This document shows, piece after piece, positions 9,101-63,421 of a DNA stretch of 64,000 nt. The translations under genes and the position numbers were made by a program. Each line of letters opens with the position of its first letter. Within the stretch, counting starts at the first letter, position 1. Origin of the DNA: Apostichopus japonicus (taxonomy: Eukaryota > Echinodermata > Holothuroidea > Aspidochirotida > Stichopodidae); NCBI RefSeq assembly GCF_037975245.1, contig NC_092583.1:6297264-6361263 (forward strand). Direction: 5' to 3'. Under the pieces are notes generated by a model. The model saw only the letters and a list, made by a program, of their open reading frames with translations, ran no database searches and was not told the DNA's origin.

Positions 9101-12100
9101 GACTGCAAGAGGATGAAACTAAATAGCTGATTGTCTTCCCTGGTCATGACATACCTGTTGGTTCACCACAAGCTGCTCTTCTAAGTTATCTTCATCTAGA
9201 GCTGCAAGAAGGGATTCGTTTATATAGTCCCACTCCACACTGACATCCAACGAAGAACTGTTTTCAGTGCTGCAGGTGTTTTCTCTGAGGGTGTCCTTAT
9301 TTGTGTTGTCTGAGAGTGCTATTCTCTCTTCAAACAAATGCCCACTTTGTGTGCTCTTACAATTTCTCTTGTTTCTTCTAGTCAGAATATCTTCATTTTC
9401 ATTGCTTTCTGTTTCTATAACCTTACCAAGGTCTACACAATCAATTGTGTTGGACAATATGGTATTTTTTCCGGATGTTACAAAGGTTTTTTCAAGTTTG
9501 ATGTCCAATGAATCCTGAGGAACTTCAGTAAATAGATGTTTCCTCGCTGAAGAAGAGAGTGATTTATCATATATGTTAACTTGAGAACGTTTAGCAAATG
9601 GAGAAGCACCTCGGTCAGGAGGCCTCTTCGAACCCATCGAAGAAGGCTTATTCAAACTTTGCTTCTTCAAGAAAATCCTGGAGGGCTTGATTGCACCATC
9701 CTCATCCAGACTTTTCTCAGGAATTTTATCCAAGCTTTGAGTTCCTCGCTTGGAATGTCCATATTTACGAGATAGCTTTGACTTTCTGCTTTTCACTGTG
9801 CCATCTCTCAAACCTAAGTGAGAAGAGCAGTACTGTTCTAACAAAGGTACAGTGTTTTTTACTGTTGATTCCTTATGTACAATACTAGGCGGTGTTTCTG
9901 GAATAACGTCAGAGGTTGATGTGTGCAGATCAATTGCACTTTGACAAGGACTGAAGGAGATACCCTCTGGGGTCTCAGGAATCACTGAAAAAGAGTTTAA
10001 GTAAAAGGCCATGTCAAGATTAAGGTGACAATATATCACAAATTGGAGATGGAAAAACTTGTAGAATGAAAAAGTATCACTGAAATGTAATCAGGAAAGA
10101 AGGTGGTGTACAAGTGGTTTAATTCAGTTGTCTGCAGAGCACTCTTTGCATGAAGCATAGCAAGAGATTGTGCTTCAACTCTCATTGCAGCACTATCTAG
10201 AGCATTCTCAAAGATGTCTCAAAGATGAGGGTTAATATCTTGCCCAAGTAGACCAAGTTTAAGCAACAGATGCTGGGATCAGGGAATAAGAGTCCTGCAA
10301 GATAATTTTGTTTCTTAAGTGCAAAATTCAATGAGACAAGACCCTCATACACCAAGTTTAGGGTCACAGCACAGTGTCCACCACATATATATACTTTAAT
10401 GACATTATACAATTATGACTCAATTCCATTAATGTATGAATTTATTTTAATATATGATTCCAAAATGGTTACTTGAGCGATACTTTTGCTTACAATGCTA
10501 ACTTCAGATTTTATAGAAATAAACAACCTTGAAATCACTGCACTTGAATAAATAAGCAATGAAAATAGCATTGCCTTTAAGCTAAACTTTTAAATGAGGC
10601 AACGATTTTAGCATTTTGTTGTCTACCTCACTCTTCCTTTTAAACTTACAACAAGACTGCTTGACGCCAAGAACAACAGGTGATTTCTGCTTACTGATTG
10701 ATTCTGTATTTACTGAAAATCGTTTGTTAAACCTTTTGAAGATTAATGTATCTAATAGCAATGCTACATCAAGATTTCAACACTAGAATTTACTCTGAAT
10801 TACACCAGCTTCTGCCATGTTTACAATAGTACATGTCAATAGGAAGTAAAACAATAGGTAGGATATGCCGTGCCATACTGTTGTACACCACTCTCATTAA
10901 AAGGATTGGGTACCAATTCATACAGACTGGCTTGAATCTTAGTATTGATCCTTAGTCGTCGAAAGTTTGGCAATGAATGAGATATAGTTTGGTGATGTAG
11001 TAGATCTACATAGATTCCACAAGTCAGTAAATAATGTATGCTAAAGTGTTGTTTGCATTACAAATAACAGACTTCGTGAAGTAGATGAAGGATCCATATT
11101 TTCATATTTTTTGTAGTCCAGAAATTTATAACCATGCAGTCAAATACATAATAAATTGAGAGAAAAGGTCCTAATAATCTCTCCAAACTTCAATAACCTC
11201 TTTGTTTACATTTTCAAGGGAAAACCATGGTATAGTAACATAAGCTGAACAGTTATACTCTATGTGATGCAATCCTTTGCGTGCAAATCTCATCACAGAA
11301 GGCTGTAATGAATATAGCACATACCCAGGTCTGTTACTGGTGATGTCCTGATATCTACTGGACCAGGGGTGCTGGTTAGCTTCTTAGGAACAAACAATGA
11401 TTCTGGGAGCTCTGCTGTCAGTTGTCTGTTCTCTTGATGGAGTGAGGATGAATATCCTTTAATCTTACAAGCACTAGTTGCAGAAGATGAAGGTCCTATG
11501 GGAAGAAAAATACTCTTTCTATGATGTACACTTGTACAGTGTAGGGAAATTAATTTTATGAACAATACATTAAATAATGACAGATCTTATAAACTGTCTG
11601 TCTGTCTGCCCTTCTACTGATAATGTATGTATGTCATGAGAATCCAAAAAGTCCATCTAGTTGTAATGAATCAGTGTTTACAGTGAAGTACTGGTAGAGA
11701 AGTTGCAATGCATGTAATCAAAATTGCATTTAAAGTACAGGTACAATAGTTCACTTACTTCTAACTAGATAATTACTTTAATATTGAAAGATAATTTACA
11801 CACCTGAAATGGCACGTGGTCTGGTGACATGGGTGGTGAACAATTTTGATTGTTGCTTCTGAAAGAGAGTGCATTATGTTATATACACAAATATTGATAT
11901 TGCTGAACTAAAATTAACCTAAAAAGCTTTCTTAGCAATAATTTTTCTACAAAGAATGATAAGTCACTGATTAAGAACGTGAAAGAACAATTGTAAATGC
12001 AGATCATCATAAATATAATTCAAGCAAAAGGCTCTGTCATTCTGTAAAAGCACTTAATGACAATAACTCACCTCTGCCTTTGTGAAGAAATTCATGATAG

Positions 12101-12617
12101 AGGGCTGCTTAGGTTTAACTCTCTGAAAGAAATTGAAGACAATTTCAAAATGCCACAAGTTAGCTTTAAGGCACAATGACTGGTTACCCTATGTGACACT
12201 ACATCTACTGTGAACTGCACTGGAGGACATACAGTAGTCTGGTGTACATAAGTCACTTCAATGGTGAGGCTATATTAATGTAAACAGACTTTAGCTAGAG
12301 AAATCAAATTTATGGTCTCATAGAAGGCATTAAATCCAACTTTATATGTCAAGGTTTCAAAAGATCGGCTATTGATTATTCTGTAAATTGACCAGGGCAT
12401 TGAAAATCAGCAACAAAACACTGCACTTATGCTTATTATGTGCCTAGCTCTAAAGGTCTTAAAAATTCAAACAAACGTTGACCTACACTGGATAATCCCT
12501 GCTCTTTTCAGTTGTACACAGCAACTGAACTTGCACTACTATGACTGCTGCTTTGCACAACACTCAACAAATAAGAGCACTTACCTGGTCATTCAAAGCT
12601 GCTTTCTTTCTTGCCAT
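1..12617 (-). CDS. DNA2: DNA2 replication helicase/nuclease, N-terminal two thirds (20 exons, 3' part off the edge)
   Basis: DNA2 cleaves 5' flaps in Okazaki fragment maturation and resects broken ends; it acts in nuclei and mitochondria of animals. Coding exons in order of transcription: 12617-12585, 12122-12072, 11858-11804, 11495-11325, 10712-10650, 9984-9155, 8789-8620, 8318-8250, 7448-7287, 6818-6794, 6430-6368, 4643-4558, 3401-3273, 3113-2990, 2502-2404, 2114-1994, 1629-1467, 909-730, 559-464, 152-1. All junctions have AG/GT and compatible phases, giving about 947 residues. Landmarks matching vertebrate DNA2: SIRCMRR (Fe-S Cys532), LVHEVF (His559), GLKGKVDVT (Asp671), PLELKTGK (Glu695, Lys697), LLLYLKTG, LRNQLAF and the Cys791/794/800 cluster. 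The helicase domain lies past the left edge. The start ATG has an in-frame TGA 39 nt upstream with no ATG between. Compared with human DNA2 the protein has roughly 390 extra N-terminal residues. Confidence 0.96.
730..909 (-). CDS. DNA2: DNA2 exon after the Fe-S cluster
   Basis: Encodes INPAPLSDAALQGFNEQIHH and then LKDSHLQYFVHWYTLCILE, matching human LKQTHLEYFSLWCLMLTLE. Its 3' splice acceptor lies in one copy of a 90-bp tandem duplication (903-1082). The next exon, 464-559, encodes EKGGCCHSDLIVQRCKAED, which aligns with the start of the human beta-barrel region (EKSGSCIGNLIRMEHVKIV). Confidence 0.92.
903..1082. repeat. 90-bp tandem duplication across the DNA2 splice acceptor
   Basis: The segment beginning ATTTATCCTATGAAGTA at 903 is repeated from 993 with a few differences, both copies running on through GCAAAAAGA, AGACAAGGCCAC, ATGTTATCCAAGCTGAA. 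The left copy contains the acceptor of the exon at 730-909, so the intron carries a second copy of the same acceptor 90 bp upstream. An A/T tract follows at about 1088-1112. Confidence 0.9.
1467..1629 (-). CDS. DNA2: DNA2 exon with three Fe-S cysteines
   Basis: Encodes residues 751-805: ELIHLRNQLAFNVSKS, a linker, then DFTCGRCCHATTC. Cys791, Cys794 and Cys800 keep the C-x2-C-x5-C spacing of human CKYCSQIGNC and, with Cys532, supply all four ligands of the 4Fe-4S cluster. An extra Cys795 sits beside the second ligand. Confidence 0.94.
2404..2502 (-). CDS. DNA2: DNA2 exon with catalytic Glu and Lys
   Basis: A 99-nt phase-0 exon encoding residues 678-710, with LPLELKTGKQTNSIEHRSQ. The human equivalent is MPLELKTGKESNSIEHRSQ. 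Glu695 and Lys697 complete the D-ExK nuclease active site, so the nuclease is predicted to be active. Confidence 0.95.
2990..3113 (-). CDS. DNA2: DNA2 exon with catalytic aspartate
   Basis: Encodes residues 636-677 ending in IEDNMWSPRWGLKGKVDV, which matches human IEESIWSPRFGLKGKIDV. Asp671 is the metal-binding Asp of the D-ExK nuclease centre (human Asp277). The acceptor used is TTGGTAAG before GCCAGG; the nearby CCAG before GGATG would break the frame. Confidence 0.94.
4644..6367. other. DNA2 intron with hairpin element
   Basis: A 1.7-kb intron between the exons at 6368-6430 and 4558-4643. Apart from the hairpin at 5346-5515 I see only AT-rich unique-looking sequence. Other DNA2 introns longer than 300 bp (153-463, 910-1466, 1630-1993, 2503-2989, 3402-4557, 6819-7286, 7449-8249, 8319-8619, 8790-9154, 9985-10649, 10713-11324, 11496-11803, 12123-12584) hold nothing I can name beyond G or C runs near 7728 and 8114. 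Confidence 0.7.
5346..5515. mobile_element. Long-hairpin MITE with 9-bp target duplication
   Basis: Two nearly perfect inverted arms, 5357-5423 and 5438-5506, begin CACCGAGACGA and end CACGTG around a 14-bp loop. The direct repeat AGAGCAGGT flanks the hairpin at 5346-5354 and 5507-5515, as expected of a target-site duplication. Nine bp fits Mutator-like elements, but no transposase is present to assign a family. It lies in a DNA2 intron, away from the splice sites. Confidence 0.88.
6368..6430 (-). CDS. DNA2: DNA2 exon with nuclease motif I histidine
   Basis: A 63-nt phase-0 exon encoding GIDKGNKAMILGTLVHEVFDK, residues 544-564. The GTLVHEVF core matches the human GTVLHEVF motif. His559 is the conserved histidine of the RecB-like nuclease fold. 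Confidence 0.92.
7287..7448 (-). CDS. DNA2: DNA2 exon with first Fe-S cysteine
   Basis: Encodes residues 481-535, including GDLLAVHGKW, GFIIYKPDFLVTGT and SIRCMRR. The segment aligns with human GDIIHLEG, LILYPDMLISGT and SIRCMRR. Cys532 corresponds to human Cys136, the first of four ligands of the Fe-S cluster that staples the nuclease domain. The exon ends after two bases of the next Arg codon, completed by the 25-nt exon at 6794-6818 (SVFDQFFK). Confidence 0.94.
9155..9984 (-). CDS. DNA2: DNA2 large N-terminal exon, mostly disordered region
   Basis: An 830-nt exon coding for residues 125-401. It is rich in Ser, Thr, Lys and Glu and has no recognisable fold. The motif IPETP occurs twice near its start (IPETPEG at the splice junction, then VIPETPPS). 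Basic clusters such as KSRKSKLSRKYGHSKR could serve in nuclear import. The end, EWDYINESLLAALDEDNLEEQL, is an acidic amphipathic segment lying where the short helix of vertebrate DNA2 begins; a role in RPA binding is possible but unproven. This exon supplies most of the extension relative to human DNA2. Confidence 0.88.
12072..12122 (-). CDS. DNA2: DNA2 coding exon 2 with PIP-box motif
   Basis: This 51-nt exon, phase 0 at both ends, encodes residues 12-28 and contains KPKQPSIMNFFTK. Gln17-x-x-Ile20-x-x-Phe23-Phe24 fits the canonical PCNA-interacting consensus Q-x-x-[ILM]-x-x-[FY]-[FY], with basic residues on both sides, as is common in working PIP boxes. It sits close to the N terminus, a usual place for such motifs. 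PCNA binding is inferred from the motif only. Confidence 0.85.
12585..12617 (-). CDS. DNA2: DNA2 coding exon 1 (start codon)
   Basis: Encodes MARKKAALNDQ, 33 nt, and ends in phase 0 at a GTAAGT donor. An in-frame stop lies upstream in the leader, so this ATG is the first usable one in the frame. The exon joins directly in phase 0 to the exon carrying the PIP-like motif. Confidence 0.85.
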
Positions 12618-21756: not shown

Positions 21757-23836
21757 GTTTATGTGATTCCAAACTGGATATTCATGGTAATGCGGTTGAA
21801 CTAATGGCTGATGAAGATGGTGAAGAACCTCTTCAAGACGGAACATATGATTTCCTATTCCTTCAATGTCAAGATCTGCGCCAGGAGCTGGTAGGTTGAT
21901 TTCATTACAATAATCGCTAGTCGATCACTGACAATACTGCTTGTTGGCTATTATACTCAATCATTTCACTCGAGTTGAAGCGGTTATAATTATGTTGGTT
22001 TTTAATGTAACGTACACTTACCTATATATTGCTCATCATAGGCTATTCGTCAATAACTACAGATTGGTTAACTCGCCGCTCAATTTGCTCTATTACTGAT
22101 ATATGCCCTCGAACCGATCAACAACACCTCGCAGGCGTCTTATCGAGTGTCATTCAATGGTTATATTTGCCGATATATTGATCTCTACATAAGTTTGAAG
22201 AAAATTTAGCATTATAATTTTAAGTCGAGATTTTGTATTTTCCGCCAAATTTGCATAATACCGTTTATGTTGCATCTTTAGTAAATTGTAATGGTTATGT
22301 CGTTACAACCTCAAGAAAGCAATGTTAAGCACGCTTTGGACAATGCTCACTTCGTAGTCTTGCGTATTCGAAAAATCACATTTGTGAAAACATTATACTT
22401 TCAGTAAGAAGGTCTACTATATATATAGCTTATTTAGTGGATCCCCTTTGCTGCCACCTTTAGAGCAATTTGTACCATTATTTCACTGAATTGTTTAATT
22501 TTAATGAATGTCAATTCCACGTGGACGTTATTTGAAGAAAAAAAAACAAGAAAAACACAACAAAATCCCCTAAAAGGAATTCGTAACTAGGCATATTGAT
22601 TATATTTCATTTACCACTTCTTTTTAATCAAACAATTATGAGTGCGCCAGAGTCAATCTTTAGCACCGTTAATAATAGGCGCGTAAATTCGAGTTTCATT
22701 ATCCAGGGGTGTGATTCGACATTCGATTCGAAAGACCGTTATTGAATAAAAAGAAATTTTGTAAAAAGTTTGTAATCCATCCGGGATTCTGTACAACCTG
22801 TTGAGGGAAACGACGGCTGCTAACGGTGAGGTGTGGTGGGTTATTTTCCGATTTACTTCTTTTCCGATTTTCATTAGAAAATTATGCGCTTATAGGTTGA
22901 CAATCAGTCTTTCCAACTCATTTTTAAAAAAAAATTCTATTTCTATTTTTTTGCAACTCCTTATAGGAAAACATGAAGGAAGCTCACCGGTTGATCGTTC
23001 ATGATATAACTTCAATCCGCACAGCGTTTAAATTATTGGTCCAGGAGGCTCAACAGCAGAACCCTGTATGTAATACAGAGCCTACATCAGAGTACAGCAC
23101 AGACTACTCAACGGAGACAGAGGAAGTTACTAATCTAAACGAGAATGAAGTATACAACACGCAACAACGGACACAAGAATCTACATCTCAAAAAAATAAC
23201 ACTAAACGAGGAAAACAAGTCAAAGTTTTACACGACTTCCCTCACATCGGTAGGACACCACAGCAGATCCCAAATCACTACCAGCCTCGCCGAAGAGATA
23301 AACGCAGTTCGAGTTTAGCTGTTGATGCAGGAAACCAATTGTATAGCAATGATCAGAGCGGGTTTTCAAATGGTGCAAGGTACAACGGTAGCTCGTCGAT
23401 GCGTCGATTCACGGCATTACCACATCATTTTGTATCATTAGAGGAAAGAAATCGACGGCAGCGGCCAGATGTGCTAGGAACACTAAACGGAATAAATAAT
23501 TCCACTTCTCGTCCGAATCAAAGGAGACATTCTGAATTTAATTCTCGTCAACAAGACATTAGAACTGGATTAGGTCCAGCATCTAGGAATTACATGGATG
23601 AAAGGCGAGGTTCACTTAGTGTAGAAATGTACCGCCGTACAAATACATTAAAGTCCCAGCATATGAAGAGTCCAAGAGCATCAGATGACATCAGACGAAG
23701 TTCGCTGTTTAATAATACTGTGGCTCAAAGACACGGTAGTGTATCTCTATCGTCACCGTCCACAGGTAACATTGGCACAGTGGGAGAAACGCTGACAGAA
23801 GACGATCATGAAGATGAAGATAATATTTATTGGTAG
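21757..23836 (+). CDS. Unrecognised gene, two C-terminal exons: coiled coil plus Arg/Ser-rich tail
   Basis: Exons 21757-21890 and 22967-23836 join in frame (AG/GT on both sides) and end at TAG 23834-23836. The joined frame reads LCDSKLDIHGNAVELMADED, then GTYDFLFLQCQDLRQELEN, then MKEAHRLIVHDITSIRTAF. If translation starts at the ATG at 21804 the protein is about 318 residues; the frame is open upstream of it to the acceptor, so earlier coding exons are possible. The second segment has heptad-like spacing suggesting a coiled coil. The tail is basic and Ser-rich with repeated Arg-Arg-x-Ser type sites (KRSSSL, RRHSEF, RRGSLS, RRSSLF) and ends in an acidic stretch, DDHEDEDNIYW. I do not recognise the family. 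The coding style and splice sites argue that it is real. Confidence 0.75.
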
Positions 23837-35900: not shown

Positions 35901-38900
35901 AGCTAACTGACAAGTATGGAGTGAAGATTGCCCCTATTTGTCACACTTCATTTTTAGATACAATGCCGAAGGCTCAGTATCCTTTGCAATTTTGTTGGCC
36001 TGTGTGCGTGCGTGTGTGGGTGGGTGCGTGTATGTGTATGTGACAGCTAACACGATATCTCAACAACCACAAGTTGAATCAATGTCATACTTGGTAGGTG
36101 GATGCCCCATCATGTTTAGATGTGCCGTATTGTTTTTGGTTCCCATCTCATGAATATGAATATGTGGGCATGACTTAACATAAAATTCTTAAAATGTCAA
36201 TACCTCTTCAACCCATGAAGTTCATACATGGTATGGGGATGTAACTATATAGTAAGTACTTGTTCTTTGCAACAACAAGTTTTAGGTCATTATTATTCAT
36301 GAGTGGGTGGTGCTTAATGGGAAATTTTCAAAAACAGCTTGTTAACACGATATCTGAACAAACACAAGTTGAATCAATATTATACTTGGTAGGTAGATGC
36401 CCTGTGATGAGTATTGTTTTGGTTTTCATCCATGAATGAATGGGCAGGCTGAATGTATAATTTGGATCATACTGGTAGGTATGTTGTTATGTACATCATA
36501 AGCACATTTTCATCATGTTTCCAACTTTCTGTCATAAGTATTCATCAACTGCAATATTAAGTTTGTCACACTTCATTCATACAATTAACAGTGTGTTTTT
36601 TGTGTGCATATCGTCATATATCTCTGAAATAGTATGTCTCATTAGCTTTACTGTATACATGTACTTGGATAATACAATGTGAGTATATAGATAAATGCTT
36701 ATGAGATCATAAAATACGATCTTGTTAATATTCATGCATGTATCTGTTTGTATACAGTTTGCATGTATCTGCACAATTTCATGAATATTAACATGTATGG
36801 CTTACCACACTATGAACATATTTGGGCAACGGAACCATTAAACGTTTTGTTTTCTGGTCTCAAGTATCAATAGTAGTAACTAATCCATACACAATGAAAA
36901 GTAGAGAAATCTTCTAAAACTATCTAAACGTAGAATAGTTTGAACTGTTCACACATTTTAACCAACAATATATCACTTGCATTCTAATTTCTCTGTTGTA
37001 GGTCTTGTAGTCTAGGGTGTTTTTATCAGTGTGTTAAATATTTGTGTTGTTCTCAGGGAGCACCTAAACAACGAAAGGAATTGGATGTACCACATCAACA
37101 GGAGTTTGACAATGCACAGGACATAAAGGAAACAGTTGAACTGGCAGAGAAAGTAGCTGCTTTGAATGTTAATTCTGAACCAGCAAATGAAGAGGCTGAC
37201 GAAAGGAAGGAATCCTTTGATGGTGACCAGCCAAACGGTGAGGGTCAGCAGTTTTAATTAGTTATTATTTCTTGTATTTAATAATATTGTCTATTTCTCA
37301 AAATTTAATATCCTAAAATGATCAACAATCCAAGAAGAAGGGTCAGTTTCATAAGTCATAATCTAGGTAACATTAGATCTCATTCCACAACGTCTCATAT
37401 CTTTCTGTTTAAGTTAGTATAATGGCACATGATTGAATTTGATTTGTATCAGCTAACTAAAGGACATGTGACACGGTATAGATCCCTCTCAAATTTATAC
37501 TAGTGATTCTTTGGAGGATAATCTAAGAATATAATATCATTTCGGATGAAAAAATGGCGTACTGTTAACTTATTAGCTTAATTAAGTGCCATTCACTACT
37601 CTGAAACGGCTGAATTTGTGACAAATATGCAAATGAGATGATGCAAAGAGAGGGAGTCATGGTATCCTAGCGACAAGTCAGGAAGAACAAAGCCACAGTG
37701 GACCTACAAACGTACGTTTGTGTGTGAGACGCGCATTGTACATACACAGTTTACTACATTTATTACTATTACTATTAATATCAGTTCATCAGTTTGCAGG
37801 CTAGGCCTCCAACAACTTTTTTTATTTCTGTCTACAAATGTGTAGGACAACAACTACGTACACTAGCCTACATAGGCATCGCGCTTAGGGGCGATATGAG
37901 CTTTTGTTTCACATGTCCTATAACACAAACCTACTGTAGTGTGTATCCAGGCTCACCAGGTAATCTACAACATTGTATAGGTTGATGAGTGTAGATCATT
38001 ATCAGGTGTTCCATTCCTATTAGTTTTCGAGATGTATAATATATTCTGTTAAGTGAAGATTATCTCATTATGAATTGGATTTCAGTTTTGTTAGTAAATG
38101 TGTTATGATTTAGTTTATTGCTGTGTCTTTCAGTTTGGACAATTTAAGTATATACCTCTTACAGGCATTGTTTATCAATAAAGTATGCAACCATATTCTG
38201 TAAAGCTGTTTATAGGTTTTAAAGAGATTCATTTTCATCTAATAATTTAGAATCTTTCAAATTGTAGTCAACAATTATATGTACCATCATTCTAATTCAG
38301 AATTTTTTTGTTTTGTTTTAAGAGCATAAAGAAGAATCCCTTGTTGAGAATCAAGAAATTCAGTCTCAACCAGATGTGAATGTTGAAGGTGAAGATGTTG
38401 AAGGTGAAGATGTTGAAGGTGAAGATGTTGAAGGTGAAGATGTTGAAGGTGAAGATGTTGAAGGTGAAGATGTTGAAGGTGAAGATGTTGAAGGTGAAGA
38501 TGTTGAAGGTGAAGATGTTGAAGGTGGAGATGTTGAAGATGCTGAAGATGGAGATGAGCAATCTGAGAATGAGGAAACGGATGATGCCTTGGAGGAAAAA
38601 AGAGGAAGTGGAGATGGACAGGTATTCTATTAGGTTACTCTGTTAAGTAATGTAGAAACATACACATCAATGTAGTCATAGCAGATGCTTTAACAAAACT
38701 TTTTTACTTGGTAGCCCCAATTTCCACCTTCATCATCTTAGCGACCCTGCAGTGGTGGAGGTAGTTGCATGGCGTCTAAGGAGGATGAGTTTTAACCCTT
38801 TCATATTTTGTGATATGATTAATGGTACTTAGGTGAAAAATGGTGTTATATTGTGCAACTTTTGAAATAATGTATGTTTAAGGTTTTCAACTTTTTTTTT

Positions 38901-41900
38901 TAACAAAACATTGAAAATTGTCTCTTCTCTTTATTCTAACAATAAAATAATTGAATTAGATTTCACTGAATATGCGCTTCCAGTCTATTCTTGTGACTTT
39001 GTTTGTTTATCATTTATATGTCTATTTTATGTAATTCTATCTACATTCTCATCAAAGATAGGATTTGAATAAAAGGTGCTTTGGGAAAATGTATGTCACA
39101 TGGTAGACAACCTTTAGCATTGATGGGGAAATATTTAAAGTAACTTGTAATTGCTTTGAAATGAAAGTTAGTGTGATTTAAGTTGTTCTGTTCATCACAT
39201 CTAAAGTTTAAGTATCTGCTAAAATTGTATTTTTGTGATTAATTTTCACAAGGAGGAACCAGCTGAGGGAGAAGTTGAATTGGACGATGATGAAGACTTA
39301 AAGAATCCAGCATACATACCAAGAAGGGGAGCTTACTATCAGCATGATGTACGCAATGATGATCAGAAGGGTGACAAGAGGTGAGGGACAGCTCAACATC
39401 ATAACTTGAGTTAGGATTAGATGTTACTTAGAACAAGTTAAGAAATAAACTTGAATTCTGAATGCATTATTGATAATGAGTTTCAAATATTTTGACTGTA
39501 AGTGGCAAACAATACTTCCATGCTCATAAGCACAACAATGACAACTATCCAGACATTCTGTAGTGTCCTCAGTCCTCCAGACGTACAATGCTAAATGTAT
39601 GTCAAAGTTCAGTAGAATTATTTACATGAAGATGGTTTGAGTTGATACTTGGCACAATGGTAACACTCAAGACAGTGATGGTTTCTTGTGTTTTGGAAGT
39701 GGGTTGCATGCACATTAATGATTGGTAACACTTAATGAAGAAGTGTAATGCAATCCTAACCATATGGCATATTAACCTGTATTTGGTATGGACATGAAGA
39801 TGGACCCTTGAAATGTTTTCAGTTTCATTTTCTGTTGCTGATTAATTATTCATGAGGGATAGCTGCATATGAGATTTAGCTAAACTGAACTTGTAAACAC
39901 AGAAATATAAAGAACCAAAATTCAGTATGTGTTGATACTTGGCACAATCATACCCTATGGCTCAGTGATGGGTTCCTATTGTGTTTGATTCATGGACACA
40001 GAAGGAATCTATGCAGTGGTGATGGTGTGCATGTGACACTTGCTCGTAAACACCATAACTCAAAAAGTTTATGGTGGATTAACTTCTGTGGATCTGTCCT
40101 ATTCAGCAAAAGAACCTTATTCTTTTCTGTGAAGTTCAATGGTCATTTGGGGTTGACAGAGCTCAAAGTCTGAAAATTTTAAACATGATAACTAAAAGGA
40201 ACATCTTTGTTGAACTTCATACTTTGTATGTAGATCCATCTTGGTGAGTACAAGAACCCTATTGAAATTAGTAGAGGTCAAAAGTCATTGGTGGTCAACA
40301 TAAGTCAAAGTCTGTAAACCTTGAAAACATGATAACTCAAAAATTAAGCTACAATTAATATGTGAGTTCTATCATGCTATGATTTTCAACCATACATAGA
40401 ACCATAGTCATTCAGGATACAAAATCTGCTTCAAATAGTTCATATTCTTGTGTTGGGTGCCTTTAAGTGGCCCTTATCAGTTTTCACACCATGAGCTTCA
40501 AGGGTCAACAGGTTATCTCAAATGGCCTCAAAATTGGCCATTTCTCTGTGATTTATACTAGTAGACTTTGGCTTTGGCAGTTACTTGTGAAACATTTCAC
40601 AGTGTATAAACAATGTCATGTAACTCTCATTCGTTAATAACAATTATTAATTGGATGGTTGTTAGCAGAGCTGATTTGCTATCTCAAAATTGGTTAAAGA
40701 AAATGTCTATTGCTTGTACATCTATGTGTTTATATTTCATCTAGGAAGATCTTTCTTTCTGGCTATTGAAACATTTTGGAATGAAAATTGTACACTGTAA
40801 AACCCTTACCAGTGATATAATCAATTGATGCCCACCAGTGAATGCTGCAACTAAGAGATGGACATCTCTGATCTTTCTGGTTCTCACTTAATTCTTGGAC
40901 AAATTTAACTCACTTGCTTTACTTAACTCAGATATGTGGACTTTTTAGCAAATTATATGGCAAGAAATCACAAAGCCAAATGGCTTTCTGGTTGATATGA
41001 ATGAGTGGGCTAAGGTGAGAAAATCTCTAAAGAAAAAATCAATTCCTCCAAAAATGTATGTGATAATGACTTCTCCTTTGGTATAGACATTATGGTCCAT
41101 CACTGAATGTGTAGTCATTGTCTTGACTGTGCAATAATATTACCATTCTAAAATGTGAGTCACTTTTGTCAAAGGCAAAAACGGGATCGGAGACTGTGGA
41201 AAGAAGATGGCAATAAATGGCTCCATGATAAGTTTGATGAAGAGGAACAAGGTCCTAAATCTTGCTATGAATTGATGAATTACCATGGATTTGACGTTAG
41301 AGATCCAACTCAGCAAGACAGGGTGGATAGTTTTCAACATAGAAGAGGAAGAGGAAGGGGAACTAGAGGTGGAGGTAGGAGACCTGATGGAGTTGCAAGA
41401 GGGAGAGGGTGAGTAGAATGCTGCACACATTTACCTAAACACTTATTACATGGTGCTACTAATGCTATTATTTATATTCATCTATCATACATGCTTTGAT
41501 CATGCTGAGAATGTTACTACTTTGAGAAGACAAAGCACAGGTGACTGACTTTGCATGATCAGTGCTGCTGTGAAATATGTCATGATTCTCTAGAATATGA
41601 ACAGCTTTGGTACTCCTGCTCAAACTTTGTGTAGGACTGCTAGGATGGATACACACTTCACTTGTTATCTGACGTTTCTGACAGGTGTTAATGTACTGTT
41701 TATCTTTAAGGAGAGGGAGGAGGTTGCAGGAACCACTGGTTGAAGATGGAGGTGGTGGTGGTGATCAACGAGGACAAGAGAGATTTTATAGGAATTTCAA
41801 ACCCACACGAACAAATTACAGAGAGGAACAAGACTTCCCTGAGTTACCATCTGTAGGAGATGGAGATCAGAGACATTCACCAAAGTCTGAATCAGTTAGA

Positions 41901-43602
41901 AGCTATGCAGAGAGAGCAAGAGGGCAAAGATATAAAAACCAACCAGAAACAGAAGTTGAAGGAGTCAGAATAACCTATCAAAGTGAAAAAACATATTATG
42001 AAAAGGATAGTGTAGGCCATAGAGAAGAGAGCTACAGAAATGTAACTGCAGACTACAGATATAAACCTTCAGTGAATCGATCTGTGAATGCACACGCTTA
42101 CCGTCATACTGAAACGCAGGACAGTGAAAGTGATCAGAACATGAGGCCAAGAGTAAGCAAAGACTTGAGTTTTGGAGATCCAAAGCAGTTTTATCAATTG
42201 GAATTTGTGAACAGAAATTATCAAAATGAGACAGACAATAAGAGTAAAGTTTCACAAACTCAGGAGGATGATAAAAATGAAGAGATCAATAGTAAATTAT
42301 CAGAACCTGAACTTAAAGAGGGTTCGAGAAAAGCTTACTCTAGTGAAAGACATCAGCGATCAAGACCTTTGCAAGATCCTAGTGCATTACCTGAAAGCTC
42401 ACCTACAGAAGCTGATAGTAAAGATGACATCAAGCCTCTCCTGAACATCCATAATCTCAAGATTCAAGTAAAGGGATCAGAAAGATTGGTTCAGTATCGG
42501 GATAATGAAGACCAGGAAGAAGAAGATGGTGATACTTTACCTGAAGGTAACAAATGTCTCTCAAACACTCACTTAGGAGAATATTATGTAATGACTCAAC
42601 AGTTTGAGTACAATAATAATTAGCATCTGCTGTAATCAGTTTTCAAAGTGAAGACTTTACCACGCCCATGCATCAGTTGCTTTTGGAGGGGGAGGGGCTT
42701 TAAGGGGAGGGGGATGGCGCTTAAGGGGCAGACAAAGAGGGCATATAGCATTACATATGTATTAAGAAAGGATATGTCTTTCGTCAAGGTATTGATTCCA
42801 GGCCGTAACAACATATAGATTAGACTGCAATAAATGCCTACTTATTTTTATTTTGAAGTCTCTCTTCATAAACTAGTTTGCTATGATAAAATCCAAAACA
42901 TACTTTGGAAATCACTCTGTCTCTTAAAAGTGCTTCATCCGTAAGCAGTGTATTATCATAACTAAATACCTTTCCAAACATGTACTGTACATGTATGTTG
43001 ACTCTAAGTAAAATTCTTCACCCACTAGAGAACTTCTCTGATGGGAGATGTGCGAAACTAATAGACCTGAAATAAACCTTCAAAATACTCAGAGCATGTA
43101 TATTGCTACTCCAAATTCCTTAGACTAATTAAAACTGATCTTTTGGAGTAAATCACTTGAATTAAGATGAGTGTATTGTATCGATTATAGGGTTTTAGCT
43201 CCAATAATTCATATCTGATATAAGTCACAACACTATATTTATTGACTCAAGATTTAATTGGGTAAATGGCTCAAAATATTATTTATGGCATGGTTAGGAT
43301 TGTTAGAAACAGGGCCTAGCAAAAGAGGCTGTTGCAATATTTTGGACAGTCTGAAGAAAACAAATCTGTGGGGGGTGGAGCGGGAGGGGGTTAGGGGGCT
43401 ATGCTCAAATTGTATTTTCTATCAACCTGTAAAAACAGATACGCTGACAGTTTGGCGTAGTGAATTGTGTAGTAGTAGGGTTATTTCCACAAATTGTGAA
43501 AGCACGCAAGTGTACAATTTCTGTCAACAGTTGCATTCTGAATCATTGTATTGCTATTTTTGGTTCCTTGCTGAAAGCAAAGGAACCTATGTATTCAGGT
43601 TG

Positions 43603-46600: not shown

Positions 46601-49600
46601 AAGGCGATATTTCATTAGATAAGTGTTTCAAATGAGAAGCATTTAATCCCTTAATCACTTACTGTTGCTTACATATATTGATATGATCTTTTTTCCCTAC
46701 AGAGGAGCCGACCAAAGAGATACTCTTCACAGAGGCAGCGAGGTCAAGACCAATCTTCATCAAATGGTTCACAGTATTATAGGGAGGGTAAGTCTGGAAT
46801 CGTCATATTAAATGCAACAACTATAATTTTCTAATCAAATTTTACAACCAAGAAGGGTCATAAGTAAATGTTTACTGATTGCCACTTTTCTTATTCCTAG
46901 CTTTTTAATATTCTTCGTAGAAACTACTATTTTTCTGGTATGCCTCCATTAAAATCACTAGTAATTTACAGTAGGCTAGTGAAATGTACCTGGTTTTGGA
47001 ATAAAATCATCCTATGAAGTCTGTACTGGTTGTGCTATCCTTTTGTGTTCGAGCGATTATATGATAATTGGTTATTACCTATTACCGATTAGAACTTCAT
47101 GTGACAATCGGGCCCATTACCGATTATTTCATCATTTTCGTGGAACTGGCCTAATATATGATTAAGTGTTATGCATGATTACCAACTTCTAGGCCAATGC
47201 AATCAAAGATGTAAATGCACGACTTAATGTTTCCCACTTAAGCAAATAAAGAAAATTGTGATAGATACATAGGGCGCTGTACATTTATAACGATGAGTCA
47301 CAATATTGCATTCCCACCAGAGAAACAAATGTTTTGCATCTTTAACTGTTTGCTTTGCTTAACATATTTGTAGGTATGCAGTCTCAGTCTCCCATCAGTA
47401 AAGCTGAGGGTAGTGGTTCCCATGGCAATGTGTCTCAGAGGAGCTCTTCACAGAGAGGTCCTGCCCAGACATCTGTTGGCAGACAAGCACCTTCATCTCA
47501 TACCAGTCAAGGTAACTAGTTATCTTTCCCTGCTGCTGCTGCTGCCACCGGTTGTAATAGAAAGTACAGTCATAAAAAGATATGCCCTTCTCCTAACTTC
47601 CTTACTGATGAGTGGTCTTGAAAACCACTTCATGTAACAGGGATATTTAGGTGCTCAGGTTACCTGGTGAAAATGTTGAGAATTATCAAGAGAAAGCCTT
47701 TAAGGTGTTTAAAACACTAAGTTTAATGTGTCACTTCTAAAATATGTTGCAAAAGATCTCTTCTTCAATAATTATGAACGAAATTGTGTCAAAGACTGCA
47801 GCTTGTCAACTTTAGTGGAACTAGATAGGACCGATATGTCAGCACCCTATGTTGTTTATTGGCATGGAGCTTGTCAACTTTAGTGGAACTAGATAGGACC
47901 GATATGTCAGCACCCTATGTTGATTATGGGCATGGAGCTTGTCAACTTTAGTGGAACTAGATAGGACCGATATGTCAGCACCCTATGTTGATTATGGGCA
48001 TGGAGCTTGTCAACTTTAGTGGAACTAGATAGGACCGATATGACAGCACCCTATGTTGTTTATGGGCATGGAGCTTGTCAACTTTAGTGGAACTAGATAG
48101 GACCGATATGTCAGCACCCTATGTTGTTTATGGGCATGGAGCTTGTCAACTTTAGTGGAACTAGATAGAACCGATATGTCAGCACCCTATGTTGATTATG
48201 GGCATGGAGCTTGTCAACTTTAGTGGAACTAGATAGGACCGATATGACAGCCCCCTATGTTGTTTATGGGCATGGTTGGAGGGCACCATTGAAGAACATA
48301 AACTACAGTGAGGAGTCATTACTGGGTTGTAAAATAAAGGCATCACATCACATATAATGAAGAAGTTCAGGTTTGTAGGTTATTTTACTGGGATTGATAT
48401 CATCTCTGTAGGTTTGCAGTCCTCGATTCCTCCAAATCTACAGAACCTCCTGCAGCAGGGTATGATGTTGCCTCCTGATGGGACGGTGCCTCATGGTAAG
48501 TAACTCATATTGTATGTGTGTGTGCCACAGTGGGGGTTGAGAGGCTGAAAATGTAAACAACTTTTGAGCACATAAAGAAGTTTCTTGCTAGAATGACAAC
48601 AAAATCTTTGACCTCAGGAAAACAGTAACTACATTGTTATGTAAGGTAATTCCAGCATGTCTCAGGGAGACCTCAGGAAAACAAGTCCAGCAACTATTCA
48701 GCAATGCCTTTATTTCATTCAGTAAATACATTGTTATGTAAGGTAATTCCAGCATGTCTCAGGGAGACCTCAGGAAAACAAGTCCTGTGTCAGCAACTAT
48801 TCAGCAATGTCTTTATTTCATTCAGTAAATACATTGTTATGTAAGGTAATTCCAGCATGTCTCAGGGAGACCTCAGGAAAACAAGTCCTGTGTCTAGCAA
48901 CTATTCAGCAATGTCTTTATTTCATTCTGTAAATACATTATTATGTAAGGTAATTCCAGCATGTCTCAGGGAGACCTCAGGAAAACAAGTCCTGTGTCTA
49001 GCAACTATTCAGCAATGCCTTTATTTCATTCAGTAAATACATTGTTATGTAAGGTAATTCCAGCATGTCTCAGGGAGACCTCAGGAAAACAAGTCCTGTG
49101 TCTAGCAACTATTCAGCAATGTCTTTATTTCATTCAGTAAATACATTATTATGTAAGGTAATTCCAGCATGTCTCAGGGAGACCTCAGGAAAACAAGTCC
49201 TGTGTCTAGCAACTATTCAGCAATGCCTTTATTTCATTCAGTAAATACATTGTTATGTAAGGTAATTCCAGCATGTCTCAGGGAGACCTCAGGAAAACAA
49301 GTCCTGTGTCTAGCAACTATTCAGCAATGTCTTTATTTCATTCAGTAAATACATTGCTATGTAAGGTAATTCCAGCATGTCTCAGGGAGACCTCAGGAAA
49401 ACAAGTCCTGTGTCTAGCAACTATTCAGCAATGTCTTTATTTCATTCAGTAAATACATTGTTATGTAAGGTAATTCCAGCATGTCAGTATTACATTTTGC
49501 AGCAAAATATGATGAGTTTAGCTATCTGTTTGAAGATGTATCAGTTGCACTTGTTGTGCAGTGCTGTTTTTTACAAGAAGGCTTTTACTGAAGTTTCATA

Positions 49601-61800: not shown

Positions 61801-63421
61801 GTACATCGCAATAGTGACTTATGTGAAAACTCTCAATAAAAGTGCTCTGCGTGATTTTTCATTCAGGCTATTCCGTAAAGGAAACGGGCAATTCCACAAA
61901 ATTAGAAAATACAGTTCAATTTGTATCCTCACGTGAGGCAATCAGTTCATAGATGATGAAAGGTCGAACAAGAATGTTGTATGATATCGTATCTGAGTTC
62001 AGATTCTGCTTTAAGGATTGAACATGGTGAAAGCCAAACGTGTAACAGTGTAACATTTGAGCGCAACTGTTAATCAAAAGTAACTTCTGGAAGATCAGGA
62101 CGAAACTAACCTGTCTAAAGAATTCTTGCATTAGAAGTTGTGTCCATTTGCTGTGAAGTTTCCATTCCTTGGCAGCGTGGCTGATATCTGCACAGTGTAG
62201 TATCATTGATAATGCCTTGACCTTCTCAATACTATATAAAAAGAACGTTAAATGCATTAAAGCTGACATAAGTATTATAATTGCTAAACGGTGTCTAAAA
62301 ACAAATGTAATTCGTCACCTTAGATCACATCTTAGTAAATGGACTTATAAGTAGCAATACGGCCATTGTAAAGTGCATGACACAAACACAATAAAAGATA
62401 CCATGATAAATATGTGCCATGCATACTTTGAAAACGGAGGAGATAAACAATGAAGTAAATTATTTTAACTATGAAATTCGTCGTGTTTATATGACTTTAA
62501 CAAATTTTTATAACATTTTGCCCACAATCTTACGTATTGCCCAACCCCCCCCCCCCCCCCGAATCCGGACCTGGCAAGGATTTCGATGAAATGCAGACAG
62601 CATGTGAGAAAACCAAAATTCTTCAAGAAAGTGATTGGTGCACAAATCTACTCATTCATAGGATAATTATAGCAACAAAGCACTTTAATGTTCCATCTTA
62701 TAATGCGTTATCCATATCGCAGTTTTGACCAAACATCCGTCAATAAACCGAGTCACACTGCTAGGGCCAATATGCCTATTCATAATTATGTTTCCAGAAC
62801 ATCGCAAGTCAAGAATTTAATTACCTGTTTGCGTCAGGTGTTTATTATAAACAAATGTAGGTCATATTTTCTCAATATCGTTTGATCTGAACTGAATACA
62901 ATATAATACCCTTTTGCCCATATTTAAGTTCGTAATTTCCCATTTGGTATTCTTGTAAACAGTTTCTCAGCCAAAGCACTCATAGACTATTTATCGTCTA
63001 ATTTATACCATATTAATTTACAACACATGTGTTTGTTCATCTTTCAACGTTTCCAAATTCATCTTGTCCATTCCAATGAAAAACGTGGACGAACAATAGG
63101 GGTCGATATCTTAAACAAATGACTTAAGCAGTTGCATACCTACACGTATAGGTCACTAAACATCTGGTAACATTCTGATATACCCAATTGTGTCACAGAT
63201 GGTATAATGAGTTAACCGCCACAAATGCGCCAAGGTCTTACGCAAATAACTCACAATAGCTGTGTGGCCATGACATACATCTCGAATGTTACATAATATG
63301 AAATGCCGTATTATCTCACCTTTCTGTGTTTCCTATCATCCCCTTCATTTGTTTGATTTGCTGGAAATGATACGACATGTCTGTTGCAAGTACCATTTCA
63401 ATGATCAGGTTTCTTAACTCT
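55685..63421 (-). CDS. PDE1: PDE1, calcium/calmodulin-dependent cyclic nucleotide phosphodiesterase, C-terminal part (six exons)
   Basis: PDE1 hydrolyses cAMP and cGMP and is activated by Ca2+/calmodulin in the cytosol. Exons in order of transcription: 63421-63320, 62231-62111, 60840-60759, 59519-59323, 59049-58914, 55890-55685 (stop TAA at 55685-55687); all phases agree. The sequence ELRNLIIEMVLATDMSYHFQ, KALSMILHCADISHAAKEW, LLMQEFFRQGDRERDLG, SPLCDRNTTLIAESQIGFID and FIVEP matches vertebrate PDE1 almost position by position. The metal-binding Asp in CADISH and the invariant Gln in ESQIGFIDF, which binds the purine, are present. The calmodulin sites and the first half of the catalytic domain lie beyond the right edge. 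After the catalytic domain comes a Ser/Pro-rich tail, and in place of the Lys-rich end of vertebrate PDE1C a short acidic one. Which vertebrate paralogue (A, B, C) is closest cannot be decided here. Confidence 0.95.
57384..57786. mobile_element. hAT-type MITE nested in the PDE1 intron insertion
   Basis: The left end CATAGGCGTAGGAGGC and the inverted right end CAAAGGCGTAGGAGCC are terminal repeats with few mismatches. The 8-bp direct repeat ACTACACA flanks it at 57376-57383 and 57787-57794. The 403-bp interior is non-coding. Confidence 0.85.
58411..58575. repeat. Polypyrimidine tract
   Basis: About 160 bp in which the plus strand is almost all C and T (TTCTCTTTTTCCCTCC-like), followed directly by a run of Gs at 58575-58586. 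Its antisense frame codes only Lys/Arg/Glu and is not a gene. Such mirror-like tracts can form triplex DNA. Confidence 0.85.
58914..59049 (-). CDS. PDE1: PDE1 exon, tail
   Basis: Encodes SESRPPSSPGRLSMGRSNTL, then PAKCSRCWTDKLSQNKGKWR and EIAAT. KWREIAA is similar to the FKATWTEVV segment of vertebrate PDE1, which is the last conserved helix. The CSRC pair is an oddity. Confidence 0.85.
59323..59519 (-). CDS. PDE1: PDE1 exon, end of catalytic domain and start of tail
   Basis: Starts FIDFIVEPSLHVCGDMIDQI, matching vertebrate FIDFIVEPTFTVLTDMTEKI, and ends in a Ser/Pro-rich stretch (KRNSIPLTRPSSAPRSSSVP). KRNSI is a plausible basophilic kinase site. Confidence 0.93.
59520..62110. other. PDE1 introns, nothing named apart from homopolymer tracts
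   Basis: The introns 59520-60758 and 60841-62110 hold no recognisable gene. Two similar stretches, about 61160-61260 and 61385-61470, share a TTAAAAA-GC core and ACACAA-TGTAGTTAA and look like a diverged local duplication. A C-run lies at 61703-61717. Confidence 0.5.
60759..60840 (-). CDS. PDE1: PDE1 exon, catalytic domain with invariant glutamine
   Basis: Encodes GDRERDLGIAISPLCDRNTT and LIAESQIG. The Gln of ESQIG, followed across the intron by FIDFIVEP, is the purine-selective glutamine that allows dual cAMP/cGMP use in PDE1. Confidence 0.94.
62111..62231 (-). CDS. PDE1: PDE1 exon, catalytic domain with metal-binding Asp
   Basis: Encodes SIEKVKALSMILHCADISHA and then AKEWKLHSKWTQLLMQEFF, RQ. 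The vertebrate equivalent is KALSLMLHTADISHPAKAWDLHHRW. The Asp of ADISH is the last metal ligand of class I phosphodiesterases. Confidence 0.95.
62232..63319. other. PDE1 intron, nothing named
   Basis: About 1.1 kb of AT-rich sequence with a run of Cs at about 62546-62561. Short ORFs here do not resemble proteins. Confidence 0.5.
63320..63421 (-). CDS. PDE1: PDE1 exon, catalytic domain (ELRNLIIEMVLATDMS)
   Basis: Encodes ELRNLIIEMVLATDMSYHFQ followed by QIKQMKGMIGNTE; vertebrate PDE1 reads ELRALVIEMVMATDMSCHFQ and then QIKAMK. The exon starts after one base of a codon completed by an upstream exon that is outside the window. Confidence 0.94.

Follow-up and report, generated by a model that had tools for sequence, protein, structure and literature searches.

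A candidate exon would give the DNA2 of Apostichopus japonicus a canonical PIP box near its N terminus

Does an animal DNA2 carry, near its N terminus, a canonical motif by which it could dock on PCNA? The question is raised by a short candidate exon at 12122-12072 on the minus strand of the window, the whole 64,000-nucleotide stretch of Apostichopus japonicus DNA that was analysed. The original prediction read this exon as RVKPKQPSIMNFFTKAE, with a glutamine at residue 17 of the protein, and its sequence, its coordinates and its reading frame were all found to agree.

The gene downstream of this exon had been called DNA2, and analysis of its nuclease part bore out that assignment. On the minus strand, the first part of the gene extends from 12617 leftwards as far as the window edge, and the C-terminal SF1B helicase part lies beyond it. 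Once spliced, the nuclease part comprised 580 residues, with two unresolved places written as X, and matched Pfam Dna2 (PF08696) with 176.4 bits (cut-off 22.4) and mouse DNA2 (chain 5eaw) with E=1.1e-80; the score for Dna2_Rift was 23.5 bits, below the cut-off of 27. Single open frames on the minus strand were also compared. The frame at 7531-7283 matched Pfam Dna2 above the cut-off (2.7e-14) and mouse DNA2 with 9.2e-5, that at 3160-2990 was likewise above the Pfam Dna2 cut-off, and that at 6511-6347, with 19.9 bits against the cut-off of 22.4, fell below it. The nuclease region showed 40% identity to mouse DNA2, a level that in our judgement suits an animal other than a vertebrate. The Asp of GKVD, the ELKTGK motif and the Cys of SIRC are the same residues in the mouse protein, and CGRC...C aligns with mouse CKYC...C; the GKVD Asp and ELKTGK are active-site residues, and the cysteines of SIRC and CGRC...C are those of the Fe-S site.

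The end of exon 7 (8412-8250, minus strand, phase 1 to 2) lies inside the mouse DNA2 alignment. Exon 7 joins exon 8 (7448-7287, minus strand, phase 2 to 2) in frame, 2 to 2, and exon 8 carries the start of the nuclease domain (SIRCMRR). One small exon is missing from the gene model between exons 8 and 9. Exons 9 to 18, which span 6430 to 2 on the minus strand, encode the rest of the nuclease domain, the Fe-S cysteines and the start of the rift domain: 6430-6368, 4643-4558, 3401-3273, 3113-2990, 2502-2404, 2114-1994, 1629-1467, 909-730, 559-464 and 152-2, the last being cut by the window edge. The frame is kept at all nine junctions among them. A 91-bp tandem duplication at 903-1083 (2.0 copies) overlaps the start of exon 16, with its acceptor at 909, and the intron upstream. 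Elsewhere in the window, an open frame at 38322-38630 on the plus strand repeats VEGED some ten times (10.6 copies of a 15-bp unit, with 99% matches), and clean satellite-like arrays are located at 47800-48275 (68 bp x 7.0, 97% matches) and 48623-49485 (104 bp x 8.4, 97% matches). Two long open frames on the plus strand, of 289 codons at 22967-23833 and of 313 codons at 41682-42620, had no Pfam match above cut-off.

The N-terminal part of the protein was assembled from six further exons on the minus strand, the splice sites of which were scored with a generic matrix made for the analysis. Exon 1 (12617-12585) encodes MARKKAALNDQ and ends in phase 0 at a donor, CAG/gtaagt, of 8.7 bits. Around its ATG at 12617, position -3 is an A and position +4 a G. 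Inspection by eye found an in-frame TGA at 12656-12654, upstream of this ATG and downstream of a possible, unscored acceptor (exon start 12662); the protein therefore probably starts at 12617. Exon 2 (12122-12072), the candidate PIP-box exon, is 51 nt long and runs from phase 0 to phase 0 between an acceptor, tttctttcag/AGA, of 4.6 bits and a donor, GAG/gtgagt, of 8.0 bits. Exon 3 (11858-11804) encodes KQQSKLFTTHVTRPRAIS and one further base (phase 0 to 1; acceptor 5.0 bits, donor 6.2 bits). Exon 4 (11495-11325, phase 1 to 1) has an acceptor of 8.1 bits and a weak donor, CTGG/gtatgt, under the 3-bit listing limit. Exon 5 (9984-9155, 830 nt, phase 1 to 0, donor 5.9 bits) is open across 276 codons in DNA of 63% A+T, and exon 6 (8789-8620, phase 0 to 2, acceptor 6.6 bits, donor 4.8 bits) ends in RYMVKFTQIKEN. 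Open frames at 10.0-10.8 kb were considered as additional exons and dropped because exon 4 joins exon 5 directly in frame.

All six exons join in frame at GT-AG sites, with phases 0, 0, 1, 1 and 0. Their spliced product starts MARKKAALNDQRVKPKQPSIMNFFTKAEKQQSK, in which MARKKAALNDQ from exon 1 is followed by RVKPKQPSIMNFFTKAE and then by KQQSK. The interval between exons 1 and 3 held three exon candidates with an acceptor of at least 2 bits and a donor of at least 4 bits, and the predicted exon, bounded by its scored sites, proved to be the only open one among them. When both strands of the window were searched, three candidates of the strength of exon 2 were obtained, one of which, exon 2 itself, was open with phases 0-0; the thresholds of this window-wide search were chosen post hoc and placed just under the scores of exon 2.

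A regular-expression scan located the PIP box, QPSIMNFF (Q..I..FF), at 12107-12084 on the minus strand, corresponding to residues 17-24 of the predicted protein. The canonical box is defined as Q1-x-x-h4-x-x-a7-a8 (PMC6116012). Q17 occupies position 1, I20 position 4 and F23 and F24 positions 7 and 8, and the exact match to Q-x-x-[ILM]-x-x-[FY]-[FY] claimed for residue 17 thus holds under the canonical definition. Lysines are found close to the box at residues 14, 16 and 26. The charge-hydropathy value of residues 1-60 was -0.17, negative values denoting disorder, as against +0.13 for the catalytic part. The possibility was considered that the box is a PIP degron of the CRL4-Cdt2 type, which has TD at positions 5 and 6 and K or R four residues past the box (PMC6116012), but here M21 and N22 occupy positions 5 and 6 and E28 stands at +4, and the degron was rejected. 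No APIM was present in the 949 spliced residues. MKDIEEYF, at residue 605 of the joined string and within the nuclease part, matched a looser PIP pattern only and was discarded.

Judged from the sequence, it is rather probable that exon 2 gives DNA2 an N-terminal PCNA-docking motif, carried on a long tail with a possible counterpart of the mammalian RPA helix behind it. According to this proposal, Q17, I20, F23 and F24 would sit in the PCNA pockets below the interdomain connector loop, as in canonical boxes. A tail of approximately 330 residues would lie ahead of an acidic stretch and would carry the PCNA clip close to its free end, and this long tail, which is probably flexible, would let the catalytic body reach the displaced 5' flap. 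The clamp would hold DNA2 at the junction, and RPA would hold it on the single strand. We infer PCNA binding, the flexibility of the tail, the role of RPA and the biological step served, whether flap trimming, fork processing or resection. If the proposal is true, an animal DNA2 with a strong-looking PCNA clip would offer a natural system for telling clamp-dependent from RPA-dependent recruitment, since a handful of point mutations, or the skipping of one exon, would separate the two. It would also show the gain and loss of docking motifs in replication enzymes.

The motif could instead bind PCNA for the processing of stalled forks, for end resection or for mismatch repair and not for the trimming of Okazaki flaps, a reading to which we give a smaller but appreciable chance. 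A review names PCNA among the interaction partners of human DNA2 when replication is under stress (PMC6943134, Table 2), and in a system that includes PCNA and RFC the human enzyme promotes mismatch repair independent of EXO1 (PMC9036127). However, nothing in the data separates these pathways from one another. Against the docking proposal itself, the same review credits RPA with the recruitment of DNA2 to long flaps (PMC6943134).

The occurrence of the pattern by chance was evaluated next to the docking proposal. Six-frame translation of the window gave nine matches to Q..[ILM]..[FY][FY], compared with 9.4 +/- 3.3 expected from 60 first-order Markov sequences, so that the bare pattern is unremarkable in this DNA. 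One of the nine, QLLMQEFF at 62140-62117 on the minus strand, is a decoy in the frame of an unrelated enzyme that matches PDEase_I. That open frame, at 61919-62314 on the minus strand, matches 3',5'-cyclic nucleotide phosphodiesterase (PDEase_I) with 45 bits. Within the 949 spliced residues QPSIMNFF is the sole PIP match. A match was found in 2.2% of 50,000 shuffles of these residues. When the 422-residue extension was shuffled 100,000 times, 0.46% of the resulting sequences had a match and 0.024% had one that started within the first 25 residues; these percentages apply to this one motif alone, which was itself picked among many that were looked for.

Exon 2 could be a genuine DNA2 exon in which QPSIMNFF arose by accident in a fast-evolving tail and plays no part in PCNA binding. 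Short motifs arise easily, as the six-frame count and the phosphodiesterase decoy illustrate. Against this stand the rarity of a match in the shuffled extension, above all in its first 25 residues, the near identity of the core to that of DNA ligase 1 and the fact that DNA2 is a replication enzyme. We regard an accidental match as unlikely.

Since exon 2, 51 nt long, keeps phase 0 at both ends and exon 3 is entered in phase 0, exon 1 can join exon 3 without a frameshift, and skipping would remove the PIP box with its flanks and nothing else. Exon 2 could then be a cassette that places the clip on only some DNA2 molecules. Nevertheless, the donor is strong (8.0 bits) and the acceptor fair (4.6 bits), which fits constitutive use. 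Symmetric exons are frequently constitutive. A switch between isoforms is therefore a possibility that we hold to be slight.

The long tail itself was characterized in the same manner. No Pfam match above cut-off was obtained in the extension, including exon 5 (830 nt), which has no known domain. The charge-hydropathy value of the extension as a whole was -0.01, at the border, and some windows of 60 residues were positive. A single-sequence AlphaFold2 model of exon 5 alone, built without an alignment and without the PIP motif, had a mean pLDDT of 42.8, and its only helices were formed by model residues 252-260 and 264-271. The extension also contains VIPETP twice, in exon 5 (9984-9155, minus strand), and seven S/T-P pairs in its 422 residues, which are possible kinase sites.

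At the end of exon 5, an acidic stretch, EWDYINESLLAALDEDNLEEQ, occupies residues 354-374 (9235-9173, minus strand), 50 residues before RYMVKF. The only helices of the exon 5 model fall in this stretch, a prediction of low confidence. When the stretch was compared with the N terminus of mouse DNA2, the best match paired INESLLAALDED with LDELDLLLLEED, and 758 of 2000 shuffles scored as high; it therefore resembles the mammalian RPA-binding helix in position and character only. By this analogy it may be the counterpart of that helix. Neither the N terminus of DNA2 nor the part of the protein that runs from residue 348 up to where exon 6 ends had a match in the PDB.

The junction between exons 6 and 7 does not join as smoothly as the others. 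Exon 6 (8789-8620) leaves in phase 2 and exon 7 (8412-8250) needs phase 1, so that they are one base out of register. A listing of single-intron GT-AG pairs gave 21 that keep the frame, and all of them lose a piece of exon 6 that includes VKFTQIKEN. A single G gained or lost within a G run (AATGGG or TGGGG), whether real or an error of assembly, could account for the mismatch, as could a missed tiny exon. The best local match of exon 6 to mouse DNA2 pairs RYMV with RYLV (mouse RYLVLAV); when exons 6-7 were shuffled 2000 times, 1014 of the shuffled sequences scored as well. Exon 6 may encode the first strand of the OB fold, and the order of such a fold and an acidic helix ahead of the nuclease domain would fit that of mammalian DNA2. 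Because exon 6 matches the mouse protein no better than shuffles do, what ties exons 1-6 to DNA2 is their strand, order and frame rather than homology, and we infer that splicing connects them to exon 7. It is quite improbable that exons 1-6 are a separate upstream gene and that the start of DNA2, like that of the mammalian gene, is to be sought downstream of them: the lack of a Pfam match or detectable homology in the extension, the break in frame under GT-AG splicing and the shuffle result for exon 6 would be accounted for, but the six exons share strand and order and are mutually in frame, exon 6 has no in-frame stop and ends about 200 bases before exon 7, its best, though non-significant, local match lands on the expected mouse strand RYLV, and a single G gained or lost in the G run restores the frame.

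Relatives were sought in homology collections of prokaryotes and viruses. The N-terminal 60 residues gave 34 pattern matches in viral contigs, none of which was confirmed. Similarly, none was confirmed among the 75 matches of the nuclease alignment in viral contigs or the 83 in genome contigs, and the nuclease had no match among phages. The DNA pattern for WSPRxGLKGK occurred in none of the viral contigs and in three prokaryote contigs; these three were rejected as DNA2, the sole tblastn match up to E=1 having E=0.039. In the open-access literature, no PIP box in DNA2 was described among the matches listed, which is not proof of its absence in print.

With respect to known systems, plant DNA2 proteins may bear an FF-type motif near the N terminus. 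Mammalian DNA2 has the homologous nuclease domain, with the same active-site residues and the SIRC cysteine, but it starts with an acidic amphipathic RPA70N-binding helix, with a flexible connection between this helix and the OB fold (PMC4716839), and human DNA2 has approximately 400 N-terminal residues fewer than the yeast protein (PMC6943134). The contrast with vertebrates drawn in the original prediction stood in part: as described in these two sources, mammalian DNA2 is without the long N-terminal part of the yeast protein, but a contact with PCNA has already been reported for human DNA2. What would be new here is the canonical motif, not the contact between DNA2 and PCNA itself.

Dna2 proteins other than the mammalian ones have N-terminal extensions relative to mammals (PMC4716839). 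Like the protein predicted here, budding-yeast Dna2 has a long N-terminal extension; in yeast this precedes the OB fold and docks the enzyme by a short peptide (PMC4980431, PMC4716839), as is proposed for the tail described above. Its extension was proposed to work via linear epitopes (PMC4716839), and its CIP box, at 207-223, is a helical peptide that docks on Ctf4 (PMC4980431). The yeast protein differs in that the partner is Ctf4, and the acidic stretch found here is unlike its 207-223 peptide (1613 of 2000 shuffles scored as high). Since the yeast extension docks Ctf4 and human DNA2 is without some 400 residues, the docking partner of the tail may, by analogy, change between lineages. A more speculative and, as a whole, rather unlikely extension of the proposal is that the tail is a fast-changing docking arm, for PCNA here and for Ctf4 in budding yeast and lost in mammals, with its clip on a skippable cassette exon, such that clamp-bound and clamp-free DNA2 would choose between flap trimming and RPA-guided resection.

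The closest parallels to the motif itself are found in other enzymes. FEN1 is likewise a 5'-flap nuclease with a canonical PIP box, although its box is near the C terminus and its core adds further contacts with PCNA (PMC6116012). DNA ligase 1 (PDB chain 7qnz_A, N terminus MQRSIMSFFHPK) also has a canonical N-terminal box, QRSIMSFF, which has six of eight residues in common with QPSIMNFF, and in both proteins a basic residue follows the box. It differs in being a ligase and in that its box starts at residue 2, whereas that of the DNA2 described here starts at residue 17.
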